NCBI RefSeq assembly: GCF_020034665.1
Contig: NZ_JAIQDI010000001.1
Location: forward strand, 1,984,001-2,048,000
Reading direction: 5' to 3'
Source of the DNA: Niabella beijingensis
GTDB taxonomy: Bacteria; Bacteroidota; Bacteroidia; Chitinophagales; Chitinophagaceae
DNA length: 64,000 nt
The notes under the pieces were generated by a model, which ran no database searches, was not told where the DNA came from, and was given only the letters and a program-made list of their open reading frames with translations. The translations under genes and the position numbers were made by a program. How positions within the stretch are numbered: the stretch's first letter is position 1; the number at the start of each line of letters is the position of its first letter. Positions 7,493 to 52,809 of the stretch are shown here, one piece after another.

Positions 7493-7538
7493 GTTCCCAT
7501 TATTGTTGTTGTAAACAGGAACAAAAGTGAGCTTACAA

Positions 7539-7581
7539 AAAGGCGGTTATTGTGAGATTTTGGTAGGTGGGAAAAATTTTT
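7539..7581 (-). repeat. Conserved ~40-bp repeat, copy A, upstream of traK
   Basis: On the plus strand this reads AAAGGCGGTTATTGTGAGA followed by TTTTGGTAGGTGGGAAAAA. It matches copies at 10818-10858 and 61649-61690, all in the same orientation. Copies A and C each lie roughly 50-100 bases upstream of the first gene of a transfer-gene block, so a promoter/operator role is the simplest reading. Confidence 0.7.
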
Positions 7582-7878
7582 AAAGAATTAACCGAGATAT
7601 TAAGTACAGGAAGGGTGGATATCAGAAGCCAATAAAATAATAAAAATATTTGTTGAATATTTGGACCTATGGTATCAGCACTAGATCTTAAATGCAAACA
7701 AACAGTTTAAATAGTATGATTGTCTTCAAGGCCAACATGTTGTATTTGAGGCGTCTCAAAACAATAAATACGCATGCAAATCAAACAGATTTCATCATGA
7801 TTACGCTAAAAATGTTCAGGAATGTACCCCCATAATAAAAATGGCTTTTTGATTAAAGGCTCTGTATCTGTCATTATT

Positions 7879-8019
7879 TTAGAAGTCCGGGTAGGTTTCT
7901 TTTAAGGCAGTTGTTTTGCAGCGATTACATTCAACTGTTAAACGGGAGGTTAAGCCCTGTTCTCTCTTGTTACGGTAAGCTAGGGTTACGTAAACCTCGG
8001 TGTTCCGGTTGAAAAGCAT
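7879..8019 (-). CDS. Possible small CxxC protein or gene remnant
   Basis: A 46-codon minus-strand frame starting at ATG 8017-8019 and ending at TAA 7879-7881. The product is basic, starts MLFNRNTEVYV and contains CNRC near residue 30. The composition looks coding rather than random, and the frame stays open upstream of the ATG to a TAG near 8060, so this may equally be the tail of a lost gene. No ribosome-binding site is convincing. It lies alone between the TonB receptor terminator and traK. Confidence 0.3.
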   Translation of the reverse strand: MLFNRNTEVYVTLAYRNKREQGLTSRLTVECNRCKTTALKETYPDF

Positions 8020-8042
8020 AGATACCCCATAAGAGCCTTGAT

Positions 8043-8071
8043 AAAAAAAGGCCCGGTACTAATCCGAGCCC
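8043..8071 (-). terminator. Rho-independent terminator after the TonB receptor gene
   Basis: On the minus strand the sequence GGCTCGG-ATTAGTA-CCGGGCC forms a 7-bp stem with one G-T pair, followed directly by seven T. It lies 38-65 bases after the stop of the receptor gene, so that transcript should stop before reaching traK. Confidence 0.75.
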
Positions 8072-8108
8072 GAGATGAAATCATTGAATGATTTTTTTAA
8101 ACCTGCCT

Positions 8109-10466
8109 TTAGAGTTTGAATGAGACACTGGCTATAAAATTGGAGGGTTTTTGCGGTGTTCCGTTATTATTCCAATACCGCTCATTCGAAAGATTGTTTC
8201 CTTTCAATGCAAACCGGTATCTTAAAACATCGTAAAATACCGAGGCGCTGAGCAAGGTATAACCGGGAACTTTAAAACTATTGGCGGCATCAAACCATGA
8301 GTCGTCTACATAATTCACACCGGCACCCAGTCCCAGTCCTTTGGCTTTACTTTCCTGGATGGAATAACTTACCCAGAGATTACCAATATTCTTCGGACTA
8401 AAAATTACATATTTACCTTGCAGGGAGGGTGCCGCATTGCGATACCTGTTCTCGTTAAAGCCATAGCCTGCTACTATATTCATCCCGGGAATAGGGTTGG
8501 CAATTACCTCCGCTTCCACACCGCGACTGCGCTGGGTACCATCCTGGAATGTGAAATTTTTTCCATCAATCAATTCTGTACGCGTTGAGTTAGTAACGCT
8601 GATATCATACAGGCTGATGCTTCCTGCCAGCCGTGTATTGAACAGGTCAAATTTCACACCTCCTTCTAATTGGTTTCCGTATTGAGGTTTCAATACAAGG
8701 ATCGTATTATCGGGCTGGGTTACCGGCGCCAGGTTCACAAATCCGTTCATATAGTTCCCGAACACTGATAATTGGTTAGCGATAACCTGATACACCATGC
8801 CAAACTTGGGCGATAAGGAAGTTTGCTCATAGGCACCGGTATATAAGCCGGTTAGTGCATTATAAGTGCCTTTGGTAGAAAAACGGTCCACTCTTAAGCT
8901 AAGCATTGCCAGTAAATGATCCGTAATATTTACCACATCAGAGGCGTAAACGCTTGCATTTTTGGCAACTGTTGAGGTAGTTGAAAAGCCCTGTTTTGCC
9001 GACATAGAATCCAGCGCAGGTATGCTCATGCCTTTTAAAGGTTGGCGTATATTGATCACATCGAAATTGACAGTAGCCCTGTACAGGTCATTATAATTAT
9101 GGTTATAGTCGATACCTGCTACCAGGCGATTACGAATAGACCCGATCTTAAAATCGCCGATGAAGTTTTGCTGTACTTCTATGTTGCCAAAGGTTTCAGG
9201 GGTCTGGTTTCTGACCACTCTCGAATACATCGAATCGTTGACCATATTAAGAGCAGTCCAGTATAGGCTTTTATAGTACCCTACCGAGTACAGGTAATTG
9301 GTTTGTAATTTCCATTTATCGGATATCTTATATTCCACCTGGGCCTGTATATTATTAATACCGTTGTTTACATCAACACTGTTATTGATATAAGATTTTT
9401 TATAATCCAGCGGCAGGTCTTTAAAATTCCTGGCGGTAATATTGGTCAGGTTGCCAAGGCCGAATGAAACAACGGTATAATTGCCACGAGTCATCTCCAT
9501 ATCCAGTATGAATTTTAAACGATCATTCACCTGGTAAGAAAAAGTAGGGGCGATCGTGTAGTTCTTATTAAATCCCTGGTCCTGGAAACTGCCTTCCGAT
9601 TGTGCAGCTGCATTGATACGAAATAAAGCTGTTTTATCTTTATTGATAGGTGTATTGATATCGGCCGATATACGGCCAAACTCATAACTGCCACCTGCAA
9701 CGCTGATTTCTCCGCCAAATTCTTCATAAGGGCGCTTGGTAACATAATTATAAACACCGCCAAAAGTTACGTTTCTGTTACTACCAAACAGAGTGCCGGA
9801 AGGACCTTTTATAGATTCAATGCGCTCCAATATGGCAGGATTCAGTGGTACAATGGCGCTGGTTGCCATACCGTTTCTCATACCGATGGTTGTAGAAAAG
9901 CCTCTCATGCTTAATCCCATAGAACCACCAGCCGAAAAGTTAGGAACAGAACCGGGGATATTACGGTAAAGATCGGTACGCTCTATAATAACCTGTTCCT
10001 GTATGAGAGCACGGCCTACTACATTATAAACCTGGGGATTTTCCAGGTTTTTCAAAGGCATACGTGCCACAAATTCACTGGATTTGTAAACAAATTTGTT
10101 TTTAGAATTAGTAACGATCACTTCCTGTAGCTGGCTATTGGAGATGGTTATCTGAAAATCGGCTGCCACCGTCCTGTTCGAAGCAACAGTTACCGATTTT
10201 TTTAAGGTTTCGTATCCGATAAAAGAAGCTTCCAGCTCATAATTTCCAATCGGGATCTTAGTAAGCGTGTAAAAACCGGCTTCATCGGTTATGGCGCTCC
10301 GGTTAGTGTTGACAACAGTAATAGTTACATAAGATGCGGGCTGATGATCGCTCGTAATTACCCTTCCTTTTATCGCTCCGGACTGCGCCAACAGGTCGCT
10401 GGCTACTAACATTAACACAAAAAATATCACTATTTGATGTTGATGTCTAAATTCCCTCATAAACAT
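8109..10466 (-). CDS. TonB-dependent siderophore-type receptor
   Basis: 785 residues: signal peptide ending LLAQ (about residue 28), a carboxypeptidase-regulatory-like beta domain (about 30-110), a TonB plug (about 120-235, with GFSTTIGMRNG and IESIKGPSGTLFGS) and a 22-strand barrel ending in a terminal aromatic-rich strand (NFIASVSFKL). Full length. Family members import ferric siderophores or other metal chelates across the outer membrane with energy from TonB. It is monocistronic here, with its own terminator downstream and 704 bases of non-coding DNA upstream. The ligand cannot be told from sequence. Confidence 0.88.
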   Translation of the reverse strand: MFMREFRHQHQIVIFFVLMLVASDLLAQSGAIKGRVITSDHQPASYVTITVVNTNRSAITDEAGFYTLTKIPIGNYELEASFIGYETLKKSVTVASNRTVAADFQITISNSQLQEVIVTNSKNKFVYKSSEFVARMPLKNLENPQVYNVVGRALIQEQVIIERTDLYRNIPGSVPNFSAGGSMGLSMRGFSTTIGMRNGMATSAIVPLNPAILERIESIKGPSGTLFGSNRNVTFGGVYNYVTKRPYEEFGGEISVAGGSYEFGRISADINTPINKDKTALFRINAAAQSEGSFQDQGFNKNYTIAPTFSYQVNDRLKFILDMEMTRGNYTVVSFGLGNLTNITARNFKDLPLDYKKSYINNSVDVNNGINNIQAQVEYKISDKWKLQTNYLYSVGYYKSLYWTALNMVNDSMYSRVVRNQTPETFGNIEVQQNFIGDFKIGSIRNRLVAGIDYNHNYNDLYRATVNFDVINIRQPLKGMSIPALDSMSAKQGFSTTSTVAKNASVYASDVVNITDHLLAMLSLRVDRFSTKGTYNALTGLYTGAYEQTSLSPKFGMVYQVIANQLSVFGNYMNGFVNLAPVTQPDNTILVLKPQYGNQLEGGVKFDLFNTRLAGSISLYDISVTNSTRTELIDGKNFTFQDGTQRSRGVEAEVIANPIPGMNIVAGYGFNENRYRNAAPSLQGKYVIFSPKNIGNLWVSYSIQESKAKGLGLGAGVNYVDDSWFDAANSFKVPGYTLLSASVFYDVLRYRFALKGNNLSNERYWNNNGTPQKPSNFIASVSFKL

Positions 10467-11170
10467 TAAAATATTATTTACTAGTTGTAACGATTCGAAA
10501 GTATTAAATCATGGGAATAACCATTTACGATAAGCGAAAAATTAACTCGCTTTAAATAGAGGTATATATAAATGCCACGCAGCAGAAAAGTCATATTGGT
10601 AAAACGCTCTAGCTATTTGTCCAGCAAATGAAGTTTGTTCCAAAATATCTACCATCGAATAATATCAATTTTTGAGTTAGGAGAAACTGTTGTTTTAATT
10701 GAATCAAAATATTCTCTTTGCTATTTGGGAAAAGCTTTTGCCTAGTAGTACTGACGAATTCAAGCACAAATCAAAATTTAAAGATCTGGTTAGTTTTCCT
10801 TCCTCTTGTACCTAATCAAGGGCGGTTATGGTGAGATATTAGTAGATGGGAAATATTTCGCCAAAATTTCTTAATCCTAGGCGAATTATTTTCTCTCTTT
10901 TTTGGAGATTATCGATTTTCATGCAGTATTTTCTAATTAAATATCATATCCAGTTAATTTGATTCGATAATGTAAAATAAGCCTAAGAATATAAAATTTT
11001 CTAGAACAGTGTCAGAATGGCTCCTACATTAGTTTCGCTTATGATAAGTCTATAAAGGTAAGGATCAATGCAATTCGTGGCGTTACGCCTATTTTAAGCG
11101 GCATTTTTTTTTACTAGAAATCTTTAAATACAGGGTAATACGCCCAAGCAAAGACCTAAAAAAAATATCT
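10467..11170. other. 704-bp region without a clear gene; contains repeat copy B
   Basis: AT-rich DNA between two minus-strand genes. It contains repeat copy B (10818-10858). Just before that lies a 38-codon plus-strand frame (10699-10815, TTG start, beginning LNQNILFAIWEKLL), which looks like a coding remnant but has no recognisable family. A short GGCG-TTA-CGCC inverted repeat near 11079-11089 is followed by T-rich DNA. The receptor promoter should lie near 10470-10520, but no convincing box was found. Confidence 0.4.
10818..10858 (-). repeat. Conserved ~40-bp repeat, copy B, inside the cargo
   Basis: Plus strand: AAGGGCGGTTATGGTGAGA followed by TATTAGTAGATGGGAAATA. Most positions match copy A, and the orientation is the same. 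It lies about 350 bases upstream of the TonB receptor start. Copies A and B thus form direct repeats around the receptor gene. Confidence 0.65.
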
Positions 11171-12754
11171 CTATTTTTTAGTGTACTGTTTAAAAATGTT
11201 CATGTTTTCATTATAAATGGGGCTTTGGATACTTAAAAAATTTAAAACACTATGAAATATATGATTTTGGGTCAGTTGTTTATTGGGTTTGAGTTGTTTT
11301 GAACTATCAGATAACCAGACGATAAATGGGATCTCGTATTGTTCCTTGGGAGCGATACTCAAAGGCACCCCGTGCATATATAGATTTTTTTCGCCTAAAG
11401 ATTCTCCATGATCCGACACAAAAATCATTGTGCTTTTATAGCCATTTAATTGTTTTAAATCTTCAATTACATTATGTAAGAGATAGTCAGTATAGACAAT
11501 AGTATTGTCATAGGCATTAATCAGTTCTTTTTGAGAACAATTTCCCAATTCAACGCTATTACAAACGGGCTTAAAGGTTTCAAATTGCGGAGGGTATTTC
11601 TTGCTGTACGTAGGACCATGGCTTGTACTTGTGTGCAGGACAACTAATATTTTATTTTTTTTGCTGATCAGGATTTGTTCTTTCAGGCCACTTAAAAGGA
11701 TTGCGTCGTAATTACAACTGTCGCCTTTGCAATTTTGCATTAACCCATCTTTATTTTGATAATTTTGAATATGAACAGGGGGTTCTCCCCAGTTGGTGGA
11801 TCTCCATATAACTTCTACATTATTTCTATATAAATAATTGGGTAAGATTTCATACAAATCGTTGGTAGGGGCGTGCTCCAAAATACATTTTACACCTGCG
11901 CTAGTATATGTAGCACAGGACGTGGCGTCAAAATGAAATAGGTTCGGAGTTTGGGAAAGTAGTGGATTCGTGTTTCTTGAGTAGCCGTACAAAGAAAAGT
12001 TTTCCCTTCTTGCAGATTCTCCTATGACTAAGACTACAACGGCTTTAGCGCTATCTTTTAATGTTGCATTTGGTAATAAAATTTCTTTTTTATTTTTTTC
12101 GTATTGATGAACATAATGAATACCGGTATTTACGAAATAGGACCAGGGCATCGCAAGCCCTCCTAATTGTTTTGAATTTTTATCAATCCATAGCCAATTA
12201 CTTGAATTAATAAATGCCAGCGTAATCATAAATAATAAAGTAAGCGAGGAGGTGATTAAAAACCGCTTTAACGAAACGCTTGTTATTTTTACTTTAATGA
12301 TGTAAATGGCAGGAATAACTCCCAATAGGATTATGTATATAATCAATTTAATAGAAAAAAAACTGCTGGCTTCTCCGTAATCGGTATTGAGCACATTGCC
12401 CATCATAATTCCATCTACAATAATATGGTAAGTATTGACAAAGTAAAGGGCAATTGCATTGAGAATAAATATTAAAACCAATAAAAATTTCCCAACAAAC
12501 CGCGAGAGGAAGAATATCAGGTAAAAAACAAAAGCGTTTGCAACCAACATGAGAATTATTAGGCTTGCAATTATAATAATACCGTTTAAACTTTTATAAT
12601 CAACGTTATTAAAAACAAAGGTGTAGAATGGAAAATGAAAGAACAGGAAATTCAAAAAACCCATTAATAAGGCAAACTGGATTAGCTTTAAATTAAAGAG
12701 CGGCTTTAGCTTTGTACTATAAAACTGCTTTAATTTCAAATTATTTTTTAGCAT
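11171..12754 (-). CDS. Lipid A phosphoethanolamine transferase, EptA/MCR-like
   Basis: About 528 residues from the chosen ATG at 12752-12754; a start 42 bases upstream would overlap the neighbour more. Five membrane helices fill roughly 20-200, followed by a periplasmic alkaline-phosphatase-fold domain. Visible are the metal site VIGESARREN (about 240), the nucleophile region SCATYTSAGVKC (about 278), and VSDHGESLGE (about 443) with a following His. Family members move phosphoethanolamine onto lipid A, lowering negative charge and susceptibility to cationic peptides. It overlaps the PAP2 gene by 14 bases, implying coupled expression and a shared lipid A modification role. Confidence 0.85.
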   Translation of the reverse strand: MLKNNLKLKQFYSTKLKPLFNLKLIQFALLMGFLNFLFFHFPFYTFVFNNVDYKSLNGIIIIASLIILMLVANAFVFYLIFFLSRFVGKFLLVLIFILNAIALYFVNTYHIIVDGIMMGNVLNTDYGEASSFFSIKLIIYIILLGVIPAIYIIKVKITSVSLKRFLITSSLTLLFMITLAFINSSNWLWIDKNSKQLGGLAMPWSYFVNTGIHYVHQYEKNKKEILLPNATLKDSAKAVVVLVIGESARRENFSLYGYSRNTNPLLSQTPNLFHFDATSCATYTSAGVKCILEHAPTNDLYEILPNYLYRNNVEVIWRSTNWGEPPVHIQNYQNKDGLMQNCKGDSCNYDAILLSGLKEQILISKKNKILVVLHTSTSHGPTYSKKYPPQFETFKPVCNSVELGNCSQKELINAYDNTIVYTDYLLHNVIEDLKQLNGYKSTMIFVSDHGESLGEKNLYMHGVPLSIAPKEQYEIPFIVWLSDSSKQLKPNKQLTQNHIFHSVLNFLSIQSPIYNENMNIFKQYTKK

Positions 12755-13625
12755 AAATAGTAATAATTTTATACAGTGAAACAACCAGGCTGGCAAGTGA
12801 CAAATAAAATATTATTAGATTTTCATTAATTATTTTGTTGATTAATATGACACAACCAATCAGGAATAACAGAATAAATATCGGATAGAATCTTTTATTG
12901 TTAACCCATGTGCAAAATTTGTATTTCCGGCTGATAAAAATACCTATAAGCCCCGAAATATACCCTATAATACCTCCTGTGATGACATCGAGCGGGTAAT
13001 GCGCTCCTACACCCACCCTCGTAAAGACAAGCACCAAACCTATGATGATTACGGAAAGAAAAAAAAGAATTTTATACTTCAGCTTTTGAGGTGTAAATGC
13101 AAACAATAACACGGTAAGAATCGTAAAAATGGTAATGGAGTGCCCCGAAGGTAAACTGTTAAACCCCGATAATTTTTTCCCGACGATAATAAAACTATTA
13201 CTATTGAATAGTGCTGCAGGTCTAGGTACCACAAATATCTTTTTTAGCGAACAGGAAAACAGCGCAGAAACCAGCAAGCCAGGTATTAAAGCCTCCCAGA
13301 TTTTTGGTGCATACACAATAAAAATACTCAAAAAAGATAAAAAAATGAGTGCATCGCCCAATTGGGTAAGGTTAAATTGAAGATTTGGATATTGTCCCAG
13401 ATTATAATTAATAAAAAAGAAGGTTTCCTCTTGAATTTGTATGTATCTGTCAACATTTAATGCATTTTGACTATACAGCAACAAGACCATTGAAGCCAGT
13501 AAAAAAGCGGGTAAAATAAACAAAAATACCTTGAGCCTTGAATAGTTATTAATGATATTGTTGCTCCGGATGGCGAATGCACCAATCCAACTATTAAAAA
13601 CTGTAAATTTTTTTTGCTTGTCCAT
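12741..13625 (-). CDS. PAP2-family membrane phosphatase, LpxE/LpxF-like
   Basis: 294 residues with six or more membrane helices. The three PAP2 motifs are present: KKIFVVPRP (about 128), SLPSGHS (about 158) and TRVGVGAHYPLD (about 202). The family removes phosphate from lipid pyrophosphates, phosphatidyl lipids or lipid A. Coupling with the phosphoethanolamine transferase suggests lipid A phosphate removal before or beside phosphoethanolamine addition, but undecaprenyl pyrophosphate phosphatase activity cannot be excluded. Confidence 0.85.
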   Translation of the reverse strand: MDKQKKFTVFNSWIGAFAIRSNNIINNYSRLKVFLFILPAFLLASMVLLLYSQNALNVDRYIQIQEETFFFINYNLGQYPNLQFNLTQLGDALIFLSFLSIFIVYAPKIWEALIPGLLVSALFSCSLKKIFVVPRPAALFNSNSFIIVGKKLSGFNSLPSGHSITIFTILTVLLFAFTPQKLKYKILFFLSVIIIGLVLVFTRVGVGAHYPLDVITGGIIGYISGLIGIFISRKYKFCTWVNNKRFYPIFILLFLIGCVILINKIINENLIIFYLSLASLVVSLYKIITIYAKK

Positions 13626-16233: not shown

Positions 16234-18753
16234 TCACTGATCATTTTTATAAGCAAGCAGCCGTAGCGCATTGAAGACAACAACTAGTGTAGAACCTTCA
16301 TGCGCGATAACAGCTGGTCCGATAGTAGCGATACCCAAAATTGTAAGGGGAATCAACATGGCCACAACTCCCAGACTTATCCAAAGATTTTGTTTGATAA
16401 TCCCCTTAGCCTTACGACTCAAACCAATTGCAAATGGGAGTAGGTTTAATTTATCTCCCATAAGAGCAATATCTGCTGTTTCCAGCGCAACATCTGAACC
16501 AGCGGCCCCCATTGCAATCCCAACGGTACTATTTGCCATAGCCGGAGCGTCATTTACGCCATCGCCTATCATTGCCAGCTTATTTTCTTCTCGGCGGATT
16601 TTTTTTATTACCTCAACCTTTTGTTCTGGAAGAAGTCCGCCTAGTACGTCGGTGATACCAATCTGGCTAGCTACAGCTTCGGCGACTTTCTGATTATCTC
16701 CAGTGAGCATTACCATTCTATGAATACCTACTTGCCTCAGTGCAACAAGCGTCTTTCTTGCTTCTCCACGAGGTGTATCCATGACAGCTATCATACCGAT
16801 ATAATCTTTTTCTTTTCTAACTATCATCGTGGTATTCCCATTTTCCTCCAATTGATGAACAGTTTTAAGAAAGTCTTTCGACGGCTTTACGTCATCAAGT
16901 GTTTCAAAGAGAGTAAGGTTTCCGATATAGATGGTAGCACCTTCTAAAATAGCCTTAATTCCTTTACCCATTATTGCTTCTACATCCGAAGCTTTAGGTA
17001 GCCGGACATTATTGTGACGTGCCTTTCCGTCTCTTGCAATAGCCTTAGCCAGAGGATGGTCACTTAAGCTTTCGACAGCAACAACGATTTTTAGTAACTC
17101 CTCTACACTAATACCGTTTTGGGGGACAACCTGAGTTAGCTTTGGCTTGCCTTCAGTCAAGGTACCCGTTTTGTCAAACGCTAACGCAGTCAAAGAACCT
17201 AAATCCTCCAACGGACGCCCGCCCTTTATTAACACGCCGGCGCGTGCAGCACGTGCTACACCGCTTAATACGGCGCTTGGAGTAGAGATTGCTAATGCAC
17301 AGGGGCTTGCTGCCACTAAGACAGCCATTGCGCGGTAAAAACTTTCATTAAAAGTTTCATTCCGAACGAGAAAGGCGAAACAAAGCAAAGCAACAAGAAT
17401 AAGCACAGAGGGAACAAAGTATTTTTCAAATTTATCGGTAAACTGTTGGGTGGGTGATTTTTGCGTCTGAGCCTCGTTTACCATTTTAATTACCCGGGAA
17501 ATTGTGGAATCACTTGCCTGTTTCATAACCTTTATTTCAAGAGACCCAGTTCCATTAATCGAGCCAGAGAAAACCCGATGCTCGGTATCTAACTTATTAG
17601 AATCTGAAATATTCTGATCAGAATTATCAATGGCAGACTTATCAACAGGGATGCTTTCTCCCGTAATAGGTGCCTGGTTAACACTGCTGTTTCCTGCCAA
17701 AACTATTCCATCTGCCGCAATTTTCGTATGTGGCCGCACCATGATTATATCATCCACTTTTAATTGCTCTATAGGTACTTCCCTAACGTTTTCGCCAACC
17801 TTGAGCAAGGCAGTTTTTGGAGCGAGATCGGTTAATGCCGCAATTGATTTACGAGCCTTTTCCATCGCAAAGTGTTCTAAGGCATGCCCCAGGCTAAACA
17901 AAAACAATAACAAAGCTCCCTCCGCCCATTGACCTAAGACACCTGCTCCAACAGCAGCAACGAGCATCAAAAAATCTATTTCAAATTCCCCCTTGGAAAT
18001 CGCCTCACAAGCCTCTTTTGTGACATAAAAGCCGCCAAAAAAGTAAGCTGCAAAATAAAATCCCCTTGGAATCCATTCAGATAGGCCTGTAATAAATGAT
18101 AGCCCGAAACCTATACCGAGTAGGGCTCCACATATAATACTAAAAACCAGTTCTGAATTTTTTCCAAAAATACCCTTGTGGTCATGCGTATGGTCATGAT
18201 CGTGGTTATAGTCATGCCCATGACTATCTTTGCCTGTACCATCTTCCTTATGTGTATGCTCCATATTTTCACCTTCATGCTTTCCAAAATGATCGTGTTG
18301 ATTTTTTACATCCAGGATTTTAAGGCCAAAACCATTTATAACTTTGAAAACCTCCTTTTCATTTGTTTGGTTTTTGTCGAACTCCAGGCTTATGACCCCG
18401 GTTCTGGAAACAGATACTTCTGTAAGCCCCTTTATCCTTTTTAAGCCGTTTTCTATGACTCTTGCATGACGGGGATGCCGTACATTTTCAAGTTGGACTA
18501 AAAGGTGCCCATACTTTTTTGTGAAATCTGCCCCCGCATCCGCAGCTAGCTTTTGGACACGGCTTAGGGAAATAATTGCAGGGTTGTAATGAAAGCAAAA
18601 TCGTGATTTTTCCTGACCTCCCTTTGTCTTTAAATGCACTTTTTCAATTCCTTGTCTTCCTTCTAACAAATCAATCATTCGCTTAACACAGCAGTCTCCT
18701 TCATCCGGAATATCCGGCAGAAGTCTATCCAAATCTATTTCTGTTTTTTTCAT
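16234..18753 (-). CDS. Heavy-metal P-type ATPase, P1B-4 (CoaT-like) signature
   Basis: 839 residues. Two ferredoxin-like metal-binding-type segments fill about 15-155; the first carries a GDCC motif and the second lacks CxxC. A His/Asp-rich run follows at about 160-195. The core has the SPC motif in helix 4 (about 479), DKTGTLTEGK (about 525), GDGVNDAPA (about 727) and HEGST in helix 6 (about 819). SPC plus HEG(G/S)T is the mark of P1B-4 pumps, reported to export Co, Fe or related divalent ions. The His-rich N-terminal extension is unusual for that subgroup, which often lacks one. It sits downstream of czcD in metal module 1. Confidence 0.88.
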   Translation of the reverse strand: MKKTEIDLDRLLPDIPDEGDCCVKRMIDLLEGRQGIEKVHLKTKGGQEKSRFCFHYNPAIISLSRVQKLAADAGADFTKKYGHLLVQLENVRHPRHARVIENGLKRIKGLTEVSVSRTGVISLEFDKNQTNEKEVFKVINGFGLKILDVKNQHDHFGKHEGENMEHTHKEDGTGKDSHGHDYNHDHDHTHDHKGIFGKNSELVFSIICGALLGIGFGLSFITGLSEWIPRGFYFAAYFFGGFYVTKEACEAISKGEFEIDFLMLVAAVGAGVLGQWAEGALLLFLFSLGHALEHFAMEKARKSIAALTDLAPKTALLKVGENVREVPIEQLKVDDIIMVRPHTKIAADGIVLAGNSSVNQAPITGESIPVDKSAIDNSDQNISDSNKLDTEHRVFSGSINGTGSLEIKVMKQASDSTISRVIKMVNEAQTQKSPTQQFTDKFEKYFVPSVLILVALLCFAFLVRNETFNESFYRAMAVLVAASPCALAISTPSAVLSGVARAARAGVLIKGGRPLEDLGSLTALAFDKTGTLTEGKPKLTQVVPQNGISVEELLKIVVAVESLSDHPLAKAIARDGKARHNNVRLPKASDVEAIMGKGIKAILEGATIYIGNLTLFETLDDVKPSKDFLKTVHQLEENGNTTMIVRKEKDYIGMIAVMDTPRGEARKTLVALRQVGIHRMVMLTGDNQKVAEAVASQIGITDVLGGLLPEQKVEVIKKIRREENKLAMIGDGVNDAPAMANSTVGIAMGAAGSDVALETADIALMGDKLNLLPFAIGLSRKAKGIIKQNLWISLGVVAMLIPLTILGIATIGPAVIAHEGSTLVVVFNALRLLAYKNDQ

Positions 18754-41144: not shown

Positions 41145-41149
41145 ATTTT

Positions 41150-43489: not shown

Positions 43490-43521
43490 AAAGAATATTG
43501 GTATTTTATATTTTCATTTTT

Positions 43522-44065: not shown

Positions 44066-44068
44066 TGT

Positions 44069-44674
44069 TTACCTATTTTTCTTATACATCAATTCGATAT
44101 TAACGTCCTTAAATCTGCTAAGCACCGACTTCCCATAATCGGTACAATAGCTGTGTGCCGTAAGTAAAGAGGTATTTACTTTATGCCATTCTTCCTCCGA
44201 ATATATTTTATCCAGAAATACTTCAAACTCTTTCCTGATAGCTTTTGCGTATCGAGGATAGGATGGTCTGGTAAAATGGTACAGGTCCGCATCACATAAA
44301 ACTTTTTCTATCATAGATATTGGGTGCTGCGGAAACTTTGTCGCCTCAATACAAGCCAATACTGAATTAATAAATTCAGTATTGGCATTATATTCCTCTA
44401 AATAATGTTGAGCCATCTTCTTGCTTTCTTCCTCGTGTCCAATGTATGCATTTACATATCCGCAGTCGTGAAACCAGGCGGCAACGATCAGTATATCCAT
44501 TTCGGATGTAGCCAAATCGCTGCCTTGCCCGATCTCCCAAGCTGCCTGAACAACCTCATAGGTATGGTTAAGGTTATGAAACACAAAGTTTGGTGCCAGG
44601 TTTTTTTTAAGAAAAACTGGAACATCTTTTTCTACAGACTTTATCAACGGACTCATAACTTCTCTCTTTTCCAA
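44069..44674 (-). CDS. HD-domain phosphohydrolase-like protein
   Basis: 201 residues, helical. The metal-binding set is visible: HNLNHTYEV (about 33), AAWFHDCGY (HD at about 69), HEEES (about 81) and CDADLYH (about 126). HD proteins hydrolyse nucleotides or signalling nucleotides. The substrate is unknown. It begins 2 bases after the czcB copy 2 stop and ends 3 bases before the broken methyltransferase gene, in metal module 2. Confidence 0.82.
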   Translation of the reverse strand: MEKREVMSPLIKSVEKDVPVFLKKNLAPNFVFHNLNHTYEVVQAAWEIGQGSDLATSEMDILIVAAWFHDCGYVNAYIGHEEESKKMAQHYLEEYNANTEFINSVLACIEATKFPQHPISMIEKVLCDADLYHFTRPSYPRYAKAIRKEFEVFLDKIYSEEEWHKVNTSLLTAHSYCTDYGKSVLSRFKDVNIELMYKKNR

Positions 44675-44676
44675 GA

Positions 44677-46017
44677 TTAATGTTCATGACCACCTGTGTT
44701 ACTAAGTTTGGCATTGATAAAGAATGCACCCTTAGTAACTATTTTTGCGTCTTTCGGGATTTCGGTCACAGGGGTGATCACGGTATATCCCAATTCAGAA
44801 ACTCCTTTGGCTACTTCTATCTTTTCAAAGTTCATGTTAGGCTCACTTTGTTTATTCTCAACGGCATGATCATGCTTTTCGCCCGGCTTATGAGCGTGAT
44901 CTTCTTCAGCCTTCTGGTCGTGGCTTTCTCCCTCTTTGTGCTCTTGACCTCCTTTTTCGTGACCAGCTTCCGGTTCTTTGTCCGTATGAACAAAGACATA
45001 GAACTTCCCATCGGCTTCTATAATAGCCTCATTTGGCACTGTGGACGCCATAACATTTTCTACACTCACCATCCCCGTAATGTTCATACCATCAATTAAT
45101 CCGGTCTTATTGCCTACTACTGTGCAGTGTACAGCAACCGTTTTGCTTTCGTTCTCAAAGGAGGATCCTATATTGAATACTTTAGCAGTATATGTTACCC
45201 GGGGATTATTGGTAATGGTAAAATTCACAATTTGTCCTACCTTCATGTAGGGCAGATCACGCTCGAACACCTGGAGATCAAGGTGGAGTAAGCTGTTGTC
45301 CACGATTTCAACTACAGGAGATGATACATCCACGTAACTACCAATCTTGGCAAGTTCATTGCTGATCGTGCCACTAACAGGACTTGTAACTACCAATGCA
45401 GCTCTTAGATTTTCTCGGCTTATACTCGATGGATTGATGCCCATTAGTTGTATCTGCTTTTTCAATGAAGACTTACGCGCCAATAAGGTGTTAAGATCCG
45501 CTGTAGCGGATTGGAGATTCCTCAAAGCCCCGGCGCTTCCCTGGTTAAGCTCTTGTTGGCGATTTAGTTCCTGCTGTGCCAGTGTGATCTTACTGTCAAT
45601 GGTGATATACTCTTCCTGCAACTGGACAAATTGTGGGTTTTCAATAGTAGCAATCATCTGACCTTTACGGACGTAATCGCCCAACTGTACGCGAAGACTT
45701 TTAACAACGCCGCCGTAAAGTGAAGTTGCATTTGCTTTCTTGTTGTTAGGCACCCTTAGCGCCCCGTTTGCCTTAACTGTAGCCGTAAGATTTTTGTTTT
45801 CGATGTTTCCGAGGGTTATTCCAACCGCTTTGATCTGTTCTTGAGTAAGTGACGCAATAGTGGATGACTCTTCCTCTCCATGCCCTTCTTCACCTTTGGC
45901 TTCGACCGTCTTTGTTTCCGCTGAAGCGTTAGCGCCTTCTCCTTTTGCCTCTTCACCACAGCTATATAAAGATGATACGAGGATAGCTGCAACTAATATT
46001 TTCCCTATAATTTTCAT
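44677..46017 (-). CDS. czcB: RND efflux periplasmic adaptor, CzcB-like lipoprotein, copy 2
   Basis: 446 residues. Lipobox LYSCGEE (Cys at about 20), a His/Glu-rich stretch after it, two lipoyl halves (RVQLGDYVRKGQMIATIENPQF and VTSPVSGTISNELAKIGSYV, split), a coiled hairpin (about 135-185) and a beta barrel. A distinctive His/Glu/Asp-rich insert at about 350-385 (HEKGGQEHKEGESHDQ) and HEH at the end suggest metal capture. Copy 1 lacks this insert. It lies 6 bases after the pump gene. Confidence 0.9.
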   Translation of the reverse strand: MKIIGKILVAAILVSSLYSCGEEAKGEGANASAETKTVEAKGEEGHGEEESSTIASLTQEQIKAVGITLGNIENKNLTATVKANGALRVPNNKKANATSLYGGVVKSLRVQLGDYVRKGQMIATIENPQFVQLQEEYITIDSKITLAQQELNRQQELNQGSAGALRNLQSATADLNTLLARKSSLKKQIQLMGINPSSISRENLRAALVVTSPVSGTISNELAKIGSYVDVSSPVVEIVDNSLLHLDLQVFERDLPYMKVGQIVNFTITNNPRVTYTAKVFNIGSSFENESKTVAVHCTVVGNKTGLIDGMNITGMVSVENVMASTVPNEAIIEADGKFYVFVHTDKEPEAGHEKGGQEHKEGESHDQKAEEDHAHKPGEKHDHAVENKQSEPNMNFEKIEVAKGVSELGYTVITPVTEIPKDAKIVTKGAFFINAKLSNTGGHEH

Positions 46018-46023
46018 TTTATC

Positions 46024-49000
46024 TTATTTGTTATTGAAGTAATTAAATTGAATTGCTGATTGATTGTACTGGTTCAATACATCCAGGTAGTTTTGACGGA
46101 TGCTAATAGCCTGGTTAAGAAACTGTCCCAGATCCGCAAAACTTATCTCTCCCGTTCTATAACTCAGGCTAGCCGCGCTGATAATTTCCTCTGACTGTTT
46201 TAATCCTGAAGTTTCATAGAAATTCAGCAGGGAATAGTTTTTTTCTATTTCAGCAATTGCGGATGCTCTTTGGGTCTGGAACAACTGTGTCTGGTAGGAA
46301 AGTGCCTTCCCCTGAACCTCTTTCTCAGCAACTGCAACCTTAACTTTATTCCTGTAGGCACCAGTCCCGAACAATGGAAACGATGCCATTACAGAAAATC
46401 CGGTAAAAGGGTCTTTAGCGCCCCATAAACGTTGACTGAAAAACCGTCCTGAAAACTCAGGTTTATTGGTGTTTTTTTGTACTTTAATATTGGAAGATGC
46501 AATATTTACATTCTGTTCCTGCAAAGCTAGCACCGGATGAGCCATGTTGCTTTCCAGCAATTCTACTGCTATTTTTTTAAGCGGTTCAGCGACAGGAAGC
46601 AGCCACTCATTTTGATTTAAAAGCATCATTAACTGTCGTTGCTGTACGGTCGCTTCCTTCTTGTTCTGTTCAAGGAAAGCCTGGAGCTCCTTAAGTTTTG
46701 CCTCTGCCGCTACCTGATCCAGCTTTGCTACATCTCCAGTCTTTACCCGAACTTCTGTAGTTTTGAACAGCATCGTGTAAATACTATCAAGACGTTGAAA
46801 GAGTGCTTGTTTATCCTGCAAATACCAAAGCTGATAATAGGCCGTGCGCACATCTCTTTTAATAACGGCGTTCAAAACATCCGTATTGAGTTCTGCGTAT
46901 TTCAGCTGTTCTTCGAAATAATTCTTCCGGGCCGAGTACAATCCCGGCCAGGCTATACCTTGTGAAACTCCAACTTTTAAAATACCGACTTTATCCGATG
47001 GGCGGAAATCCTCGTTTTCTGCGAATACGCCCGTTTTAGGAATGTCATTAGCCGTCTTTACATTTAGCGAAGCACTTTTGATTTGAGCTGTATTCACACC
47101 AAATTGTTGATTATTCGCTAACGCGGTCGCTAAAGCTTTGTCGATCGAAATTCGCTGTTGTTGCTGTGCATTAACAGATGAAAAACTTCCCAGGAAGAGT
47201 AAGATCACTACTGCCGTTGTTTTCATATTACCTTTTCCTTTGATTTTTAATTTTGAGTTGAAGATGATATACAGTAGCGGCAATACAAACAGTGTAAGAA
47301 ACGTCGCTGTGATCAATCCGCCAATCACAACTGTTGCCAGAGGCTTTTGAACTTCCGCGCCGGCACTGGTACTGATCGCCATTGGTAAAAAGCCTAAAGA
47401 TGCCACTGTTGCTGTCATCAATACGGGACGCAAACGGGTCATCGTACCTTCCTTGACTCGCTGAAAAACATCACCCATACCTTCTTTTTGTAACTGGTTA
47501 AACGTACCTATCAATACAATACCATTTAATACTGCCACACCAAACAGGGCGATAAATCCGATACCAGCACTGATACTGAAAGGCATTCCACGAAGCATCA
47601 ATGCGAAAACTCCGCCGATTGCACTCATAGGAATAGCCGTAAATATTAAAGTCGCCTGTTTGAAAGAATGGAAGGTAAAATACAGTAACATAAAAATGAG
47701 CAGCAAGGATACGGGAACCGCTATCATCAAACGGTCGCTGGCCTTCTTAAGATTTTCAAACTGCCCTCCGTAAGTGAAATAATATCCAGATGGAAGTTTT
47801 ATTTTTGCTGCCAACTGCTGCTGTATATCTTCCACAACACTTTGTACATCCCTGCCGGCAACATTAAATCCGATTACAATCCTACGTTTTCCCGCTTCAC
47901 GGCTTATTTGTGCAGGCCCCAATTTGTATTCAACATTTGCAATCTGTGATAAAGGTATCTGCACACCTGTATTGGTCGGGACCATCAGGTTGTTTACGTC
48001 ATCTATGCTACTTCTGTGTGCGCTGTCCAAACGAACTACCAAATCAAAACGCCTCTCATTTTCATACACTTGTCCGGAACTCTTACCGGCAAAAGCGGTA
48101 CTCACAACGTCATTTACGTCCTGTATTGTTAATCCATAATTGGCAATCCTGGTGCGGTCATATTCGACATTGATCTGTGGAAGCCCGCTAACCCGTTCAA
48201 CTTGAGGAGAGGTTGCTCCGGACACACTTTGAATAACTTCACTCACTTCCTTGGCGTATGAAGCGAGCGTATCAATATTCTCTCCGAAGATTTTTACCGC
48301 TACATCTTGTCTGATCCCGGTCATCAACTCATTAAAACGCATCTGGATGGGCTGGTTTTTTTCAAAGAATACGCCGGGTATAACTTCGAGTTTTTCCATG
48401 ATTGCATCTGCGAGTTCTGTGTAACTTCTTTTAGATTTCCATTCATCCTGTGGTTTAAGTACCACCATCAGGTCGGTAGCCTCGGGTGGCATTGGATCCG
48501 TAGGAACTTCGGCAGCCCCCGTTTTACCCACCACCATCTTGACTTCGTCAAATTGTTTGATAATTCGCGATGCTTGCATGGAGGTTTCAATACTTTGATT
48601 CAGCGAACTACCTTGTGGCAGGATACAGTGAAAAGCGTAGTCCCCCTCCTGTAATTGGGGTATGAACTCGCCGCCCATTCTGCTGAAGAAAAATACTGCA
48701 ATTGCAAAAATGCCAACAGTGACGCCTACTATAACATATTTAATTCTGATGGCCTTTTGTAACAAAGGTTGGTACCAACCCTGAAGCTTACTCATCATTT
48801 TATCACTGAATGTCCTTTTGTGGCTTGGTTTTTTTGATAAAAGCAGGGCACACATCATCGGAATGTACGTAAGGGATAATACCAAAGCCCCGAATATTGC
48901 GAAACCAACCGTCTGGGCCATAGGACGGAACATTTTTCCCTCAACACCAACCAAAGTAAGAATAGGAATATATACGATCAGGATGATAATTTCTCCAAAG

Positions 49001-50346
49001 GCGGCACTGGTACGTATTTTAGAGGCCGAAGTAAATACTTCTTTGTCCATTTCAGTCTGAGTGAGCCTGGCTGTCGACTTTCGCAGGCCAAGATGGTGCA
49101 TGGTTGCTTCAACAACAATAACTGCTCCATCGACGATAAGTCCAAAGTCAATAGCTCCTAAGCTCATCAAGTTAGCGCTCACGCCGAATACGTTCATCAT
49201 TCCCAGGGCAAACAGCATAGCAAGCGGAATGGCAGAAGCTACGATCAGTCCGGCGCGAAAATTTCCAAGGAACAATACCAGAACGAAAATTACTATCAAT
49301 GCCCCTTCTATTAGATTCTTTTCCACGGTGCTGATAGCACGACCAACAAGATCAGTCCGATCCAGATAAGGTTCGATAGTAACATCTTCAGGCAGCGACT
49401 TTTCGATAGTAGGCAGCTTTTCTTTAATACGCTTCACTACCTCATTACTATTTTCCCCTTTCAACATCATCACTACCCCACCTACAGCATCTACTTCACC
49501 GTTATACGTTAAGGCACCATACCTGACCGCACTACCAAATCTCACATTAGCCACATCACTTATATATATTGGTACAGCACCGGAATTTTTTACGACAATT
49601 CTCTTAACATCATCTAACGATGTTACCAAACCAATACCCCTGATAAAATAGGCATTTGGTTTTTTGTCGATGTATGCACCACCGGTATTCTGATTGTTCT
49701 TTTCAAGAGCGGTAAAGATATCTGGGATACTTACGCCCATTGCTCTCAATCTATCGGGATTTACGGCAACTTCGTACTGTTTCAATTGGCCACCAAAGCT
49801 GTTTACTTCAGCAATACCGGGTGTGCCGTATAGCTGTCTGGCTACAATCCAATCCTGCATAGTACGCAGATCCTTTGCATTGTATTTGTTTTCGCTTCCC
49901 TTTTTAGGGTGAATGATGTATTGGTAGACCTCACCCAGACCTGTACTTACAGGCGCCATCTCTGGGGTACCAATACCTTGGGGGATTTTATCGACAGCCT
50001 CTTTGAGTCGTTCATTAATGAGCTGTCTGGCAAAATATATATCGACACCCTCTTCAAAAACAACAGTTATCACGGAGAGACCAAAACGGGATATACTGCG
50101 GATTTCTTCAATTTTTGGAACATTCGCTATACTTTGCTCTATAGGGAACGTTACGAGTTGTTCTACTTCCTGGCCCGCTAATGTTGGGCAGGTGGTAAAT
50201 ATTTGTACCTGATTGTTGGTTATATCAGGAACGGCATCTATGGGTAATTTGGTGGCGCTCCACGCCCCCCATATAATAAGTACCAAAGTCATTAATCCAA
50301 TAATGATTTTGTTCTTTATACTGAATTTAATAATACGATCTAACAC
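46024..50346 (-). CDS. czcA: CzcA-type RND metal pump fused to a TolC/CzcC-type outer-membrane factor, copy 2
   Basis: 1440 residues. The RND part (~1-1030) has DFGLIVDGAVIVVEA (about 400), close to the Zn/Co/Cd group. At residue 1041 a Met begins a perfect signal-peptide-like stretch, MKTTAVVILLFLGS to NAQ, and the nucleotide sequence just upstream is AAAGGAAAAGG, a good ribosome-binding site. The outer-membrane factor follows to residue 1440. The outer-membrane part could therefore also be made alone by internal initiation, or be cut out by signal peptidase. It is similar to copy 1 along the RND part, weaker in the channel part. Confidence 0.92.
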   Translation of the reverse strand: MLDRIIKFSIKNKIIIGLMTLVLIIWGAWSATKLPIDAVPDITNNQVQIFTTCPTLAGQEVEQLVTFPIEQSIANVPKIEEIRSISRFGLSVITVVFEEGVDIYFARQLINERLKEAVDKIPQGIGTPEMAPVSTGLGEVYQYIIHPKKGSENKYNAKDLRTMQDWIVARQLYGTPGIAEVNSFGGQLKQYEVAVNPDRLRAMGVSIPDIFTALEKNNQNTGGAYIDKKPNAYFIRGIGLVTSLDDVKRIVVKNSGAVPIYISDVANVRFGSAVRYGALTYNGEVDAVGGVVMMLKGENSNEVVKRIKEKLPTIEKSLPEDVTIEPYLDRTDLVGRAISTVEKNLIEGALIVIFVLVLFLGNFRAGLIVASAIPLAMLFALGMMNVFGVSANLMSLGAIDFGLIVDGAVIVVEATMHHLGLRKSTARLTQTEMDKEVFTSASKIRTSAAFGEIIILIVYIPILTLVGVEGKMFRPMAQTVGFAIFGALVLSLTYIPMMCALLLSKKPSHKRTFSDKMMSKLQGWYQPLLQKAIRIKYVIVGVTVGIFAIAVFFFSRMGGEFIPQLQEGDYAFHCILPQGSSLNQSIETSMQASRIIKQFDEVKMVVGKTGAAEVPTDPMPPEATDLMVVLKPQDEWKSKRSYTELADAIMEKLEVIPGVFFEKNQPIQMRFNELMTGIRQDVAVKIFGENIDTLASYAKEVSEVIQSVSGATSPQVERVSGLPQINVEYDRTRIANYGLTIQDVNDVVSTAFAGKSSGQVYENERRFDLVVRLDSAHRSSIDDVNNLMVPTNTGVQIPLSQIANVEYKLGPAQISREAGKRRIVIGFNVAGRDVQSVVEDIQQQLAAKIKLPSGYYFTYGGQFENLKKASDRLMIAVPVSLLLIFMLLYFTFHSFKQATLIFTAIPMSAIGGVFALMLRGMPFSISAGIGFIALFGVAVLNGIVLIGTFNQLQKEGMGDVFQRVKEGTMTRLRPVLMTATVASLGFLPMAISTSAGAEVQKPLATVVIGGLITATFLTLFVLPLLYIIFNSKLKIKGKGNMKTTAVVILLFLGSFSSVNAQQQQRISIDKALATALANNQQFGVNTAQIKSASLNVKTANDIPKTGVFAENEDFRPSDKVGILKVGVSQGIAWPGLYSARKNYFEEQLKYAELNTDVLNAVIKRDVRTAYYQLWYLQDKQALFQRLDSIYTMLFKTTEVRVKTGDVAKLDQVAAEAKLKELQAFLEQNKKEATVQQRQLMMLLNQNEWLLPVAEPLKKIAVELLESNMAHPVLALQEQNVNIASSNIKVQKNTNKPEFSGRFFSQRLWGAKDPFTGFSVMASFPLFGTGAYRNKVKVAVAEKEVQGKALSYQTQLFQTQRASAIAEIEKNYSLLNFYETSGLKQSEEIISAASLSYRTGEISFADLGQFLNQAISIRQNYLDVLNQYNQSAIQFNYFNNK

Positions 50347-50480
50347 AATGTATCTGATTATTTAACGCTTAATAAAATATGTAATCTTCTTCTGGGGATA
50401 GAAAAAGCAGGAAATAGATGCGTGCTATGGAATATCATACGTATATTGTACGACACCTAATCAGCGCTAAAAAGCACTTT

Positions 50481-50523
50481 TGTCTCGTATGAAGTACACG
50501 AGGGTGTTTCATACGATGAGACA
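50481..50523. promoter_or_regulatory. Long hairpin between DUF6660-like gene and RND pump
   Basis: TGTCTCGTATGAA at 50481-50493 pairs with TTCATAC...GAGACA at 50508-50523 (three-base bulge), with a further ACAC/GTGT pair inside and a GAGG loop. It lies in the 191-base gap of metal module 2. It could be an operator, a processing site or an attenuator. Related CATACG words recur at about 50436-50452. Confidence 0.55.
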
Positions 50524-50537
50524 CGATCTAAAGAAAA

Positions 50538-50867
50538 TTAAGCGTTAAATCTCGGCGGCTGCCAGATATTGCCGAAGTAATTGGAAACAAACAAAAATTC
50601 TCCGATTACAATTTTTTTGGTTGTAAAGTCTTGTGAAGGGATACTAAATTCTGGTGAGAGAGCACTAAATGAGGTTATTGAAACGCTACAACAAGTACAT
50701 TGACAAAAGGGTGTACAATTGTCATCCTTGTCGTCATTATGACTATATTTCATTATTTGAGATACAGATTTTGCCTGTTCACAACTATTATCGATATCAC
50801 TACACGATACGCCAAAAAGCGTTGCGAGGTAAAATCCTAATGTTGCTATTGCTATTATCCATCTCAT
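50538..50867 (-). CDS. DUF6660-like secreted Cys-rich small protein, copy 2
   Basis: 109 residues: a signal peptide/lipobox-like region (GVSCSD, about 20), a polar stretch with CTPFCQCTCC (about 50), and a C-terminus of IWQPPRFNA. It matches the copy at 27997 in layout and motif, though the rest has diverged. It heads metal module 2. Cys-based metal binding in the envelope is inferred. Confidence 0.72.
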   Translation of the reverse strand: MRWIIAIATLGFYLATLFGVSCSDIDNSCEQAKSVSQIMKYSHNDDKDDNCTPFCQCTCCSVSITSFSALSPEFSIPSQDFTTKKIVIGEFLFVSNYFGNIWQPPRFNA

Positions 50868-51140
50868 CGGAACTGCAAAATTACGGATTAATTTTATACA
50901 AGAATTAAAATTATATATTTAATAGCAATGACTAGAGAATATAACGAACCCTGTGAAATTTTAATGCTTTCTTTGTAACAGAAAACAATCCCAAGCGTTA
51001 GGTATATTTTAATGTATAACATGCAATAGCTAGTATTTAGCCTTACTGGCAGTGTTAGACAAGTTTAAACTGATTGTACAGTTGTATACTCTCTTTAACT
51101 AATGTATATGATAGTCAATGCTTTTTTAACCACCCTCAGA

Positions 51141-52448
51141 TTATTCCACTTCTATAAACATCTCTTTGAAATTAATAGTAAATGATTTAAACCCTTGAAG
51201 AAGATCGATGCCTAAATTGCCATAGTAATTCTCGCTTTCACCAAGGGGCGTCGTTCTGACATTGATTTCAGGTAACATTACTTTATGACCAGCAACATCA
51301 ATCCTGAAATTTTTGAGCTTGTAAGCAGCAGCGGTGCTTACCATGCCCCCCACGCCGGCTGATTTCAGCTCATAAGGCGTTCCCTCCTTGACAATCATAT
51401 TTTTATACCTGGTAAAGAAAGGCTGGTACAACACCGAAGAAGAGGTACCGGTGTCGAAGCGAAAGGGGAGACGATCTTGTCCGACTGTAAAATTGACGAT
51501 GGGCATCGGGCCATCAAAAGCCAGATTGTACTCCTTATTTTTTACGGGATCGTTCATGATTTCAATAGTTCCACTTTGACGGATAATAATTTGCTCTAGC
51601 TGTGAAATGATGGGCTGACCTATAATTCCCTGTTGCTGGTAATCCTGCTGTTTAAAATACAGCATATCATCCGGTAATAATAGAAATACTGCATTGGTGA
51701 TCAATATTTTTCCTAAGAATAGGGTATCGGACACTGCAAGCGATGACTGAATTACCTGCCCGGAAATACCACTGGCCACATCAATGTTCACCGGGTAGAT
51801 TTCCATATGCATTTTCCGCGCGTTGCTTTCTGTAATCACAGATATATTCGCGCCAGTATCAAATATTAGATTACAGGTATCCTGTTCTCGTGTCATTGGT
51901 ACTTCAATGAGGCCGATTTTATCTTTTTGAAAAGGAACGATAGCCGGGTAGTTGATAGAAATTTGCTGAGCCGGCACACTGGCTATTGCTGTCCACAACG
52001 CTTTGGATCCCTCTAAATCCTCCCTTATGGCGCTATCTTTGAGTGCTGGATAGGAGTGAATCAAACTGTCGTAACAATTTGCCGCTTGTTGGTATTGATA
52101 CAGCTTACTATAATTATCGGCCTGAAGAAGGAGCAAGGCTCTTCGCACCGAATCCGTTGCGGCGGGGAAACGTTTATTGAACTGCTCAATCATTTCATTA
52201 GATGTCTCACAACGATTGAAAACATTGTCAATTACCGCCTGATAAAACAATTTTTTGTCGTCGGGTAAGCCGGATTTTACTCTATTAAACTGAGAACGCA
52301 GTTTAAAAAGATCCCTTTTGTGATATAATTGTTCAAGGTTCTGTTCAGCTTGTATATATTTGGGAAGTACAGTCTGTGCAGAACCAAGCAGATAGCAAAA
52401 TAAGATACACGAGGCAACGCATCGTTTGAATAAATAGGCTATCATCAC
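51141..52448 (-). CDS. Retropepsin-like aspartic protease, secreted
   Basis: 435 residues with a signal peptide ending GSAQ (about 24). A helical TPR-like region (about 30-150) precedes two aspartyl-protease-like halves: FDTGANIS (about 190) and FDTGTSSS (about 330), each followed by a hydrophobic-hydrophobic-Gly pattern (GIIGQPI, GNLGIDLL). Full set for a two-domain clan AA protease. It lies alone between metal module 2 and traJ, with no obvious partner; its place at the cargo edge is notable. Confidence 0.82.
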   Translation of the reverse strand: MMIAYLFKRCVASCILFCYLLGSAQTVLPKYIQAEQNLEQLYHKRDLFKLRSQFNRVKSGLPDDKKLFYQAVIDNVFNRCETSNEMIEQFNKRFPAATDSVRRALLLLQADNYSKLYQYQQAANCYDSLIHSYPALKDSAIREDLEGSKALWTAIASVPAQQISINYPAIVPFQKDKIGLIEVPMTREQDTCNLIFDTGANISVITESNARKMHMEIYPVNIDVASGISGQVIQSSLAVSDTLFLGKILITNAVFLLLPDDMLYFKQQDYQQQGIIGQPIISQLEQIIIRQSGTIEIMNDPVKNKEYNLAFDGPMPIVNFTVGQDRLPFRFDTGTSSSVLYQPFFTRYKNMIVKEGTPYELKSAGVGGMVSTAAAYKLKNFRIDVAGHKVMLPEINVRTTPLGESENYYGNLGIDLLQGFKSFTINFKEMFIEVE

Positions 52449-52809
52449 TATAGGCTTTACAGTTTATAAACAGATTAAAGGTATACAATTTTTTAACCTT
52501 ACCTCTTTTGAAAATTTAGAAACTCATCCTTTATTGACAGATCAAATAGTAATGTTTACATATAACAGCTATGATTTAATTGATCCAACATCTTTAGACT
52601 ATAGGGTATTAATTTAATACATTAATTATAGAAGACATAGGCGAAAAGCGGTTTCCGTAATACTAGAAACTAAAGGACGAGATATTGCTAATATTAAAAC
52701 TATTCATGAATTAGAACCTCTTTCATTGATATACTTCAAGGCTTATGAATCCCCCAAATAAAATCGCCCCATTCAAATAAGAAAACAGAATCTTTTCTCA
52801 TATTTCGCT
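52449..52809. other. 361-bp cargo/transfer junction without a called gene
   Basis: A plus-strand frame at 52618-52761 (47 codons, no start codon) reads RRHRRKAVSVILETKGRD and ends FKAYESPK. It looks coding and may be the 3' end of a lost gene. No inverted repeat, transposase or tRNA is seen at this border. No strong terminator after traJ was found. Confidence 0.4.

Follow-up and report, generated by a model that had tools for sequence, protein, structure and literature searches.

Split of the transfer region between traJ and traK

The window studied here is the whole stretch of 64,000 nucleotides of Niabella beijingensis that was analysed (contig 1, 1984001-2048000, of a 6.59 Mb genome). Its gene content indicates that it covers the larger part of a CTnDOT-like (MPF_B) integrative element from a Niabella, which is presumed to transfer. 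In this element traJ (52810-53997; TIGR03782, 360 bits against a cut-off of 290) is the last gene of an upstream transfer unit and forms the upstream border of the interruption, and traK (6872-7492; TIGR03781, 218 bits against a cut-off of 152) is the first gene of a downstream unit. Both genes are intact and lie on the minus strand, and 45,317 bp separate the stop codon of traJ from the start of traK. Beyond traJ, the upstream unit (54025-60992, minus strand) contains traG (57764-60295), open reading frames (ORFs) with DUF4133 and DUF4134 that are traF- and traE-like, and other tra ORFs. Downstream of traK follow a traL-like ORF without a family match (6386-6868; 52% identical to its syntenic counterpart in N. 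pedocola), traM (5130-6383) and traN (4216-5103), and this half continues to the left edge of the window and past it. The matches to TraN, TraM, TraK, TraJ and TraG all exceeded the curated NCBIfam cut-offs, and all these genes are on the minus strand. The initial annotation had described a transfer operon split between traJ and traK, with both halves intact and on the same strand; the distance of 45.3 kb, the NCBIfam matches and the reading frames confirm this anatomy, which is directly established.

The annotation had also considered that a second traK might adjoin traJ. A profile search of the whole genome revealed none beside the traJ of the window: the four traJ and four traK matches pair off, and the other three pairs have 53, 54 and 213 bp between the model matches. 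As an empty site at the DNA level, the sister element in the same genome (C1:474k) was discarded, being too diverged with one short blastn match.

Different cargo at the same junction in related elements

A TraJ scan of species genomes yielded 12 loci. In the three nearest relatives, N. pedocola and the metagenome-assembled genomes (MAGs) BAC13 and BAC11 (TraJ 68-83%), unlike cargo was present at the same junction: 4.2 kb with a 1271-aa protein that has a SIR2 domain and also a partial Dsr2 match in N. pedocola, 2.0 kb with a polysaccharide-deacetylase gene in BAC13, and 1.2 kb in BAC11, where PADLOC matched neither of the two small ORFs present. The fourth relative, Chitinophaga sp. S165 (TraJ 62%), has a closed junction of 44 bp. 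Because close relatives show the same gap with unrelated cargo, the window does not hold a one-off insertion. Thus, the initial reading stands as regards the split, the strand, the intact halves and the lack of machinery at the edges (see below), but not as regards a single unusual insertion into an otherwise adjoining operon. A plasmid search returned only traJ relatives below 60%.

The frequency of such gaps was determined in larger samples. In the order and genus samples (298 + 17 genomes) the median traJ-traK distance was 181 bp, and 6 of 70 pairs were more than 1 kb apart; the list of 70 pairs omits fragmentary second rows of split hits and, for G003, traK matches that scored below the cut-off. 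Among the matches listed for the family sample (394 genomes), the distance exceeded 1 kb in 4 of 93 further pairs, where 19 of the 93 pairs (all ≤70 bp) were not fetched and 15 traK and 12 traJ rows had no partner. The automated gaps of G117 (195) and G002 (292) are not real: they stem from an incomplete traK and from a traJ match that is short, and by eye the genes adjoin. In G003, which belongs to the same genus and is 72% complete, one contig has many broken traJ and traK matches that reflect either assembly errors or decayed elements.

The same intergenic site was found to contain different DNA, with the core genes intact, in 4/4 elements of the lineage formed by the window element and its three nearest relatives (lineage 1) and in seven elements of a second lineage. 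The cargo of the window measures 45 kb versus 1.2-8.2 kb in the ten other distinct cargo junctions (including the family-sample matches listed); the distinguishing feature of the window junction is the size of its cargo.

A promoter-like block ahead of traK

The window element and its relatives N. pedocola, BAC13 and BAC11 have a conserved stretch of DNA immediately ahead of traK, and everything further upstream differs. The conserved block consists of a box near TTTCCCRNCTACCAATATCTCAC, followed by 22 nt and a -7-like motif, YANNTTTG. In the window this putative traK promoter occupies 7522-7576 on the minus strand, at the downstream border of the gap, with the box TTTTTCCCACCTACCAAAATCTCAC at 7552-7576, a 22-nt spacer and CACTTTTG at 7522-7529. 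The Bacteroidota -7 consensus is TANNTTTG, and the YANNTTTG motif resembles it. In 100 shuffles of the window, allowing ≤3 mismatches, no match to the traK box was obtained. The 22-nt spacing between box and YANNTTTG was observed directly at traK and at the first tra genes in 4/4 lineage-1 elements; two of these, the window element and that of N. pedocola, have it at the mob genes as well. Ahead of the first gene of the transfer unit of the window lies a diverged box together with CAAATTTG (61654-61684, minus strand; box 61662-61684, -7-like motif at about 61632-61639), with 5 mismatches and a spacing of 22; it occupies the same place as a box with 2 mismatches in N. pedocola. These motifs suggest that traK, which follows the gap, has retained a promoter of its own.

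A second lineage with another box

Seven distinct cargo junctions (G135, G120, G262, G286, G447, G526 and G457:C34) belong to lineage 2. They have another box, near GTTAGCCCTACCTCACTTACC, located 87-99 nt ahead of traK. Boxes of this type were also present ahead of the first tra genes in G135, G120, G262, G280, G071, G447, G526 and G457, and further upstream as well in some of the elements. In all seven junctions a pair of AbiEi- and AbiEii-like genes adjoins traJ on the opposite strand. The pair of G135 was named by PADLOC; those of the other six were recognized by 76-99% identity, one of these being short. Further cargo comprises Mokosh-like genes (G135 and G447) and a PD-T7-1-like gene (G262 and G526). 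The cargo is often but not always related to defence, since G120 has signalling, outer-membrane and thioredoxin-like genes and G286 an aminotransferase; a DndA/SspA label for the latter was dropped, as Pfam identified a class V aminotransferase. Boxed junctions without cargo were found by pattern in G071 (106 bp) and G249a (412 bp), and by eye in G280 and G425 (87 bp each).

Association of the box with cargo

In 11/11 distinct cargo junctions (including the family-sample matches listed) the box precedes the start of traK by 72-99 nt. Its association with cargo was determined in two sets of junctions. The first comprised 69 junctions, namely 60 of the 70 order and genus pairs and nine named loci, in which the box was sought within 160 nt of traK; it omits two CTnDOT-type pairs of G000, seven of G003 and one of G311, as well as L047 (no traK) and L048. 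The box was present in 8/8 junctions longer than 1 kb versus 2/61 others, G071 and G249a (Fisher 5e-9, kinship uncorrected), a result that is descriptive only, because the box patterns had been drawn from this same set. For the second set the prediction was written beforehand, and it was borne out. By pattern, the box was found in 4/4 junctions longer than 1 kb versus 0/70 others among the matches listed. One of these four cases, G569:C23, is the BAC11 contig again, which leaves three new ones, all of lineage 2. In addition, a diverged box was recognized by eye in G425, and two G424 junctions of 403 and 153 bp were without a box. The association is an observation made in two clades (see the phylogeny below).

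In a TraJ+TraK tree of 134 rows, from which duplicates and short rows had been removed, the 11 cargo rows fall in two clades, i.e. lineage 1 (4/4 rows) and a group of 10 rows in lineage 2 with seven cargo rows and three boxed cargo-free ones. Placing the 14 box rows in one clade was rejected with 40 chosen rows (a cost of 190 log-likelihood units; approximately unbiased test, p-AU 8e-55). Transfer of the promoter block between the lineages is unlikely because the boxes differ. The simple reading of the tree would be that the slot arose twice.

These distributions bear on the order of events. Cargo could have inserted by chance into a continuous operon with no pre-existing permissive site, the traK promoter having evolved later as a repair. 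Lineage 1 fits this, as all four boxed elements hold cargo and the sisters S165, G296 and G453 (39-69 bp) have no box. In lineage 2, however, boxed junctions without cargo do exist, and two of these, G425 and G071, branch outside most cargo rows; G280 is placed among the cargo rows, and it may once have had cargo that was later lost. Taken together, later repair is considered unlikely, and a promoter ahead of traK that permits cargo remains the preferred explanation.

The cargo and its edges

The cargo of the window (7493-52809) is, according to Pfam scans, a mosaic of metal and envelope genes plus regulators, with a G+C content of 0.31-0.42 by segment versus 0.40 for the non-cargo part of the window. 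Nearest to traK is a TonB-dependent receptor of the siderophore type (8109-10466), followed by an EptA-like phosphoethanolamine transferase and a PAP2 phosphatase (11171-13625), both on the minus strand and assigned by profile and Pfam matches. Two metal modules are also on the minus strand. Module A (16234-27734) encodes a P-type ATPase, a cation-efflux protein, a bestrophin-like protein, a CusB-like adaptor and an RND pump fused to an outer-membrane efflux domain. Module B (36831-50346) has PAP2, AAA and Mrr-like ORFs, a P-type ATPase, MgtC, a bestrophin-like protein, a CusB-like adaptor and again an RND pump with a fused outer-membrane efflux domain. The modules are paralogous in part, with 73% identity between the bestrophins and 52% between the RND pumps. 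The two pumps (23355-27734 and 46024-50346) are about 1450 aa long and have the efflux domain fused C-terminally.

At the edges, the initial annotation had seen no integrase, transposase or terminal inverted repeat, and this was borne out by the edge comparison and by Pfam, which detected no transposase or integrase in 33 of the 52 cargo ORFs (≥100 aa); the remaining 19 lie across scanned ORFs, in different reading frames. The edges 7493-8110 and 52449-52812 have no 10-mer in common in either orientation, and thus no terminal repeat or target duplication of 10 nt or more; four direct 9-mers are common to them versus 2.1 expected. A search for leftover tra fragments in the cargo gave nothing convincing (best E 0.006, 154 residues at 21%). 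In all junctions examined the cargo ends near the box on the traK side, and on the traJ side, compared by eye, near the stop codon. On the plus strand at 52600-52770 an open stretch of about 45 codons, seen by eye, faces traJ and ends just before it; oriented like the cargo genes of several relatives, it is possibly a remnant of earlier cargo.

Within the cargo a second, degenerate box is present at 10831-10855 (minus strand), with 3 mismatches and without YANNTTTG at the spacing. It is part of a direct repeat, 7539-7579 and 10818-10858, that flanks the TonB-receptor gene (E 1e-5). This suggests that at least the TonB-receptor segment was added or swapped beside the promoter. It could likewise be taken to mean that cargo modules enter through the box, which would then act in attachment or recombination instead of or besides being a promoter element, the more so as cargo ends beside it in every case and the two copies around the receptor segment form a 41-bp direct repeat with 85% identity. 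The same box, however, precedes tra and mob genes where there is no cargo edge, always with a -7-like motif at the fixed spacing; moreover, the traJ-side edge has no copy of it and the 33 scanned cargo ORFs contain no recombinase gene. An attachment site is for these reasons judged improbable, even more so than a later repair, and the box is best regarded as part of a putative promoter.

The element as a whole

Synteny with N. pedocola begins about 1.75 kb outside the left edge of the window and extends to window coordinate 93,941. On the right side the element has a relaxase, a coupling protein, a two-component pair and a serine recombinase. The relaxase (PF03432, L015:150-1664) and the coupling protein are outside the window, the latter as an ORF 83% identical to an N. 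pedocola homologue that Pfam identifies. The serine recombinase (PF00239, PF07508) is encoded at L015:8283-9941. At its end this ORF overlaps an oppositely oriented tRNA-Arg(CCT) gene (L015:8283-9975), adjoining mfd, and this locus is likely the right end of the element. No convincing att-type repeat was found on the left side. The families of Tra proteins, the relaxase with the coupling protein and the RteC-like regulator (61694-62527, minus strand; PF09357, E 2e-53) agree with a CTnDOT-like MPF_B element. An IntDOT-type tyrosine integrase, by contrast, does not adjoin it, the nearest PF00589 match on the contig being about 0.5 Mb away.

A gap of this size could also mean that the two halves are left over from separate elements or from a chromosomal rearrangement, that the 45 kb are host DNA and that transfer is dead; the large distance and the still presumptive transfer would fit. 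Yet the reading frames are intact, and both halves are closest to, and syntenic with, one compact element, that of N. pedocola (TraJ 83%, TraK 80%, TraG 84%), with the mob genes and the serine recombinase following in order. That the halves do not belong together is thus very improbable, and the window is treated here as one element that presumably still transfers.

Other genes of the element were noted. A possible regulator with a C-terminal helix-turn-helix of the LuxR/NarL type (62662-63639, minus strand; partial matches to LuxR-type regulators) has homologues at 56-61% identity in four lineage-2 elements. In a comparison aimed at one regulator common to both lineages, it was not found in the fetched stretches of BAC11, BAC13, G262, G286, G447 and G526. 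BAC11 has RteC as well as the LytTR pair, and BAC13 the RteC protein. A PAPS-reductase-like ORF (54692-55519) within the upstream tra unit is absent there in N. pedocola and represents a second, small insertion. On the left side of the element two genes encode D12-class DNA adenine methyltransferases (L012:14621-15457 and 18248-19060), the second of which is conserved in N. pedocola (81%).

A proposed cargo slot between two transfer units

The explanation that we favour, at a probability of roughly 0.77, is that the junction is a cargo slot, similar to the SXT hotspots, in a CTnDOT-like element, between two transfer units that have separate promoters and are probably co-regulated. The transfer genes would be transcribed as two units, with traJ as the last gene of one and traK as the first of the other, and the traK unit would be driven from its own, presumably active, promoter block, of the same design as the blocks ahead of the first tra and mob genes. 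Given this shared design, one regulator of the element could turn on all units together, the candidates being RteC, the two-component pair and the LuxR-type protein. DNA landing between the traJ stop codon and the traK promoter would disrupt no gene and leave traK-traN transcribed, and so the junction would be a tolerated and repeatedly used slot; cargo would be tolerated because traK does not depend on read-through. Cargo would probably enter through ordinary recombination, with no dedicated integrase involved. Related elements would then have taken up different cargo in the slot, and in the window element the cargo would have grown into the 45-kb metal and envelope mosaic.

Several observations weigh against this explanation. 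Only the second set tests the box patterns, and its three new cases are all from lineage 2. In lineage 1 no boxed junction without cargo was seen, and the box might therefore be a consequence of cargo there. With its five mismatches, the tra-unit box of the window is too degenerate to stand alone. With ≤7 mismatches allowed, a scan for box, spacer and motif found 5 hits in the 224 kb around the window, compared with a mean of 1.1 in shuffled sequence (maximum 3 of 30). Little weight can thus be given to weak single hits, and only 3/5 hits have ≤2 mismatches. The one-clade test was named after inspection of the tree, used 40/134 rows, counted G280 and G425 by eye, and omits G249a, a pattern hit that lies elsewhere in the larger clade.

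A more far-reaching proposal is that two Bacteroidota lineages independently split the tra operon by giving traK the regulated promoter of the element, thereby making a protected cargo bay, and that the promoter repeats of lineage 1 may also serve the swapping of cargo modules by recombination, with the box at 10831-10855 as a fossil. It is tentative and on balance doubtful. CTnDOT-like elements dominate Bacteroidota. If the split-promoter design is true, it would indicate where in such elements to look for defence and resistance cargo, it would explain how tens of kb can reside inside the transfer genes without silencing them, and it would imply the rule that cargo is possible where a promoter block precedes traK.

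Comparison with known systems

The slot is real, ordinary in kind but undescribed, and its load in the window element is unusually large: in a literature search covering few subscription journals, no report was found of cargo between traJ and traK of CTnDOT-like elements. The closest parallel in the portions of the literature consulted is the SXT/R391 family of integrative and conjugative elements (ICEs), in which cargo occupies intergenic sites of the transfer backbone (hotspots HS1-HS5) and leaves the core functions uninterrupted, HS1 being located between the transfer genes traJ and traL, and in which several transfer units are switched on by one activator through a motif overlapping the -35 region (PMC2791158, PMC4542580). 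The likeness consists of intergenic cargo between transfer genes that are arranged in several units. However, the transfer system of SXT/R391 is unrelated and not MPF_B, its traJ is not homologous in spite of the name, and SetCD with its motif would play no part in the window element; SXT is considered here as an analogue only. Closer in kinship are the CTnDOT-like ICEs of Mucilaginibacter, which share MPF_B transfer genes, an RteC-like protein and a large metal-resistance cargo with the window element; in these the metal clusters are near the transfer genes and the recombinases are IntDOT-like tyrosine recombinases, whereas the window element has a serine recombinase and its cargo inside the transfer region, and traJ is unmentioned for Mucilaginibacter in the sections consulted (PMC6316836). 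The ICEs of Riemerella anatipestifer, of the CTnDOT/ERL family with RteC and TraD-TraQ, similarly have cargo with a TonB-dependent receptor, but in the parts of that report consulted no cargo between traJ and traK is described (PMC6491836).

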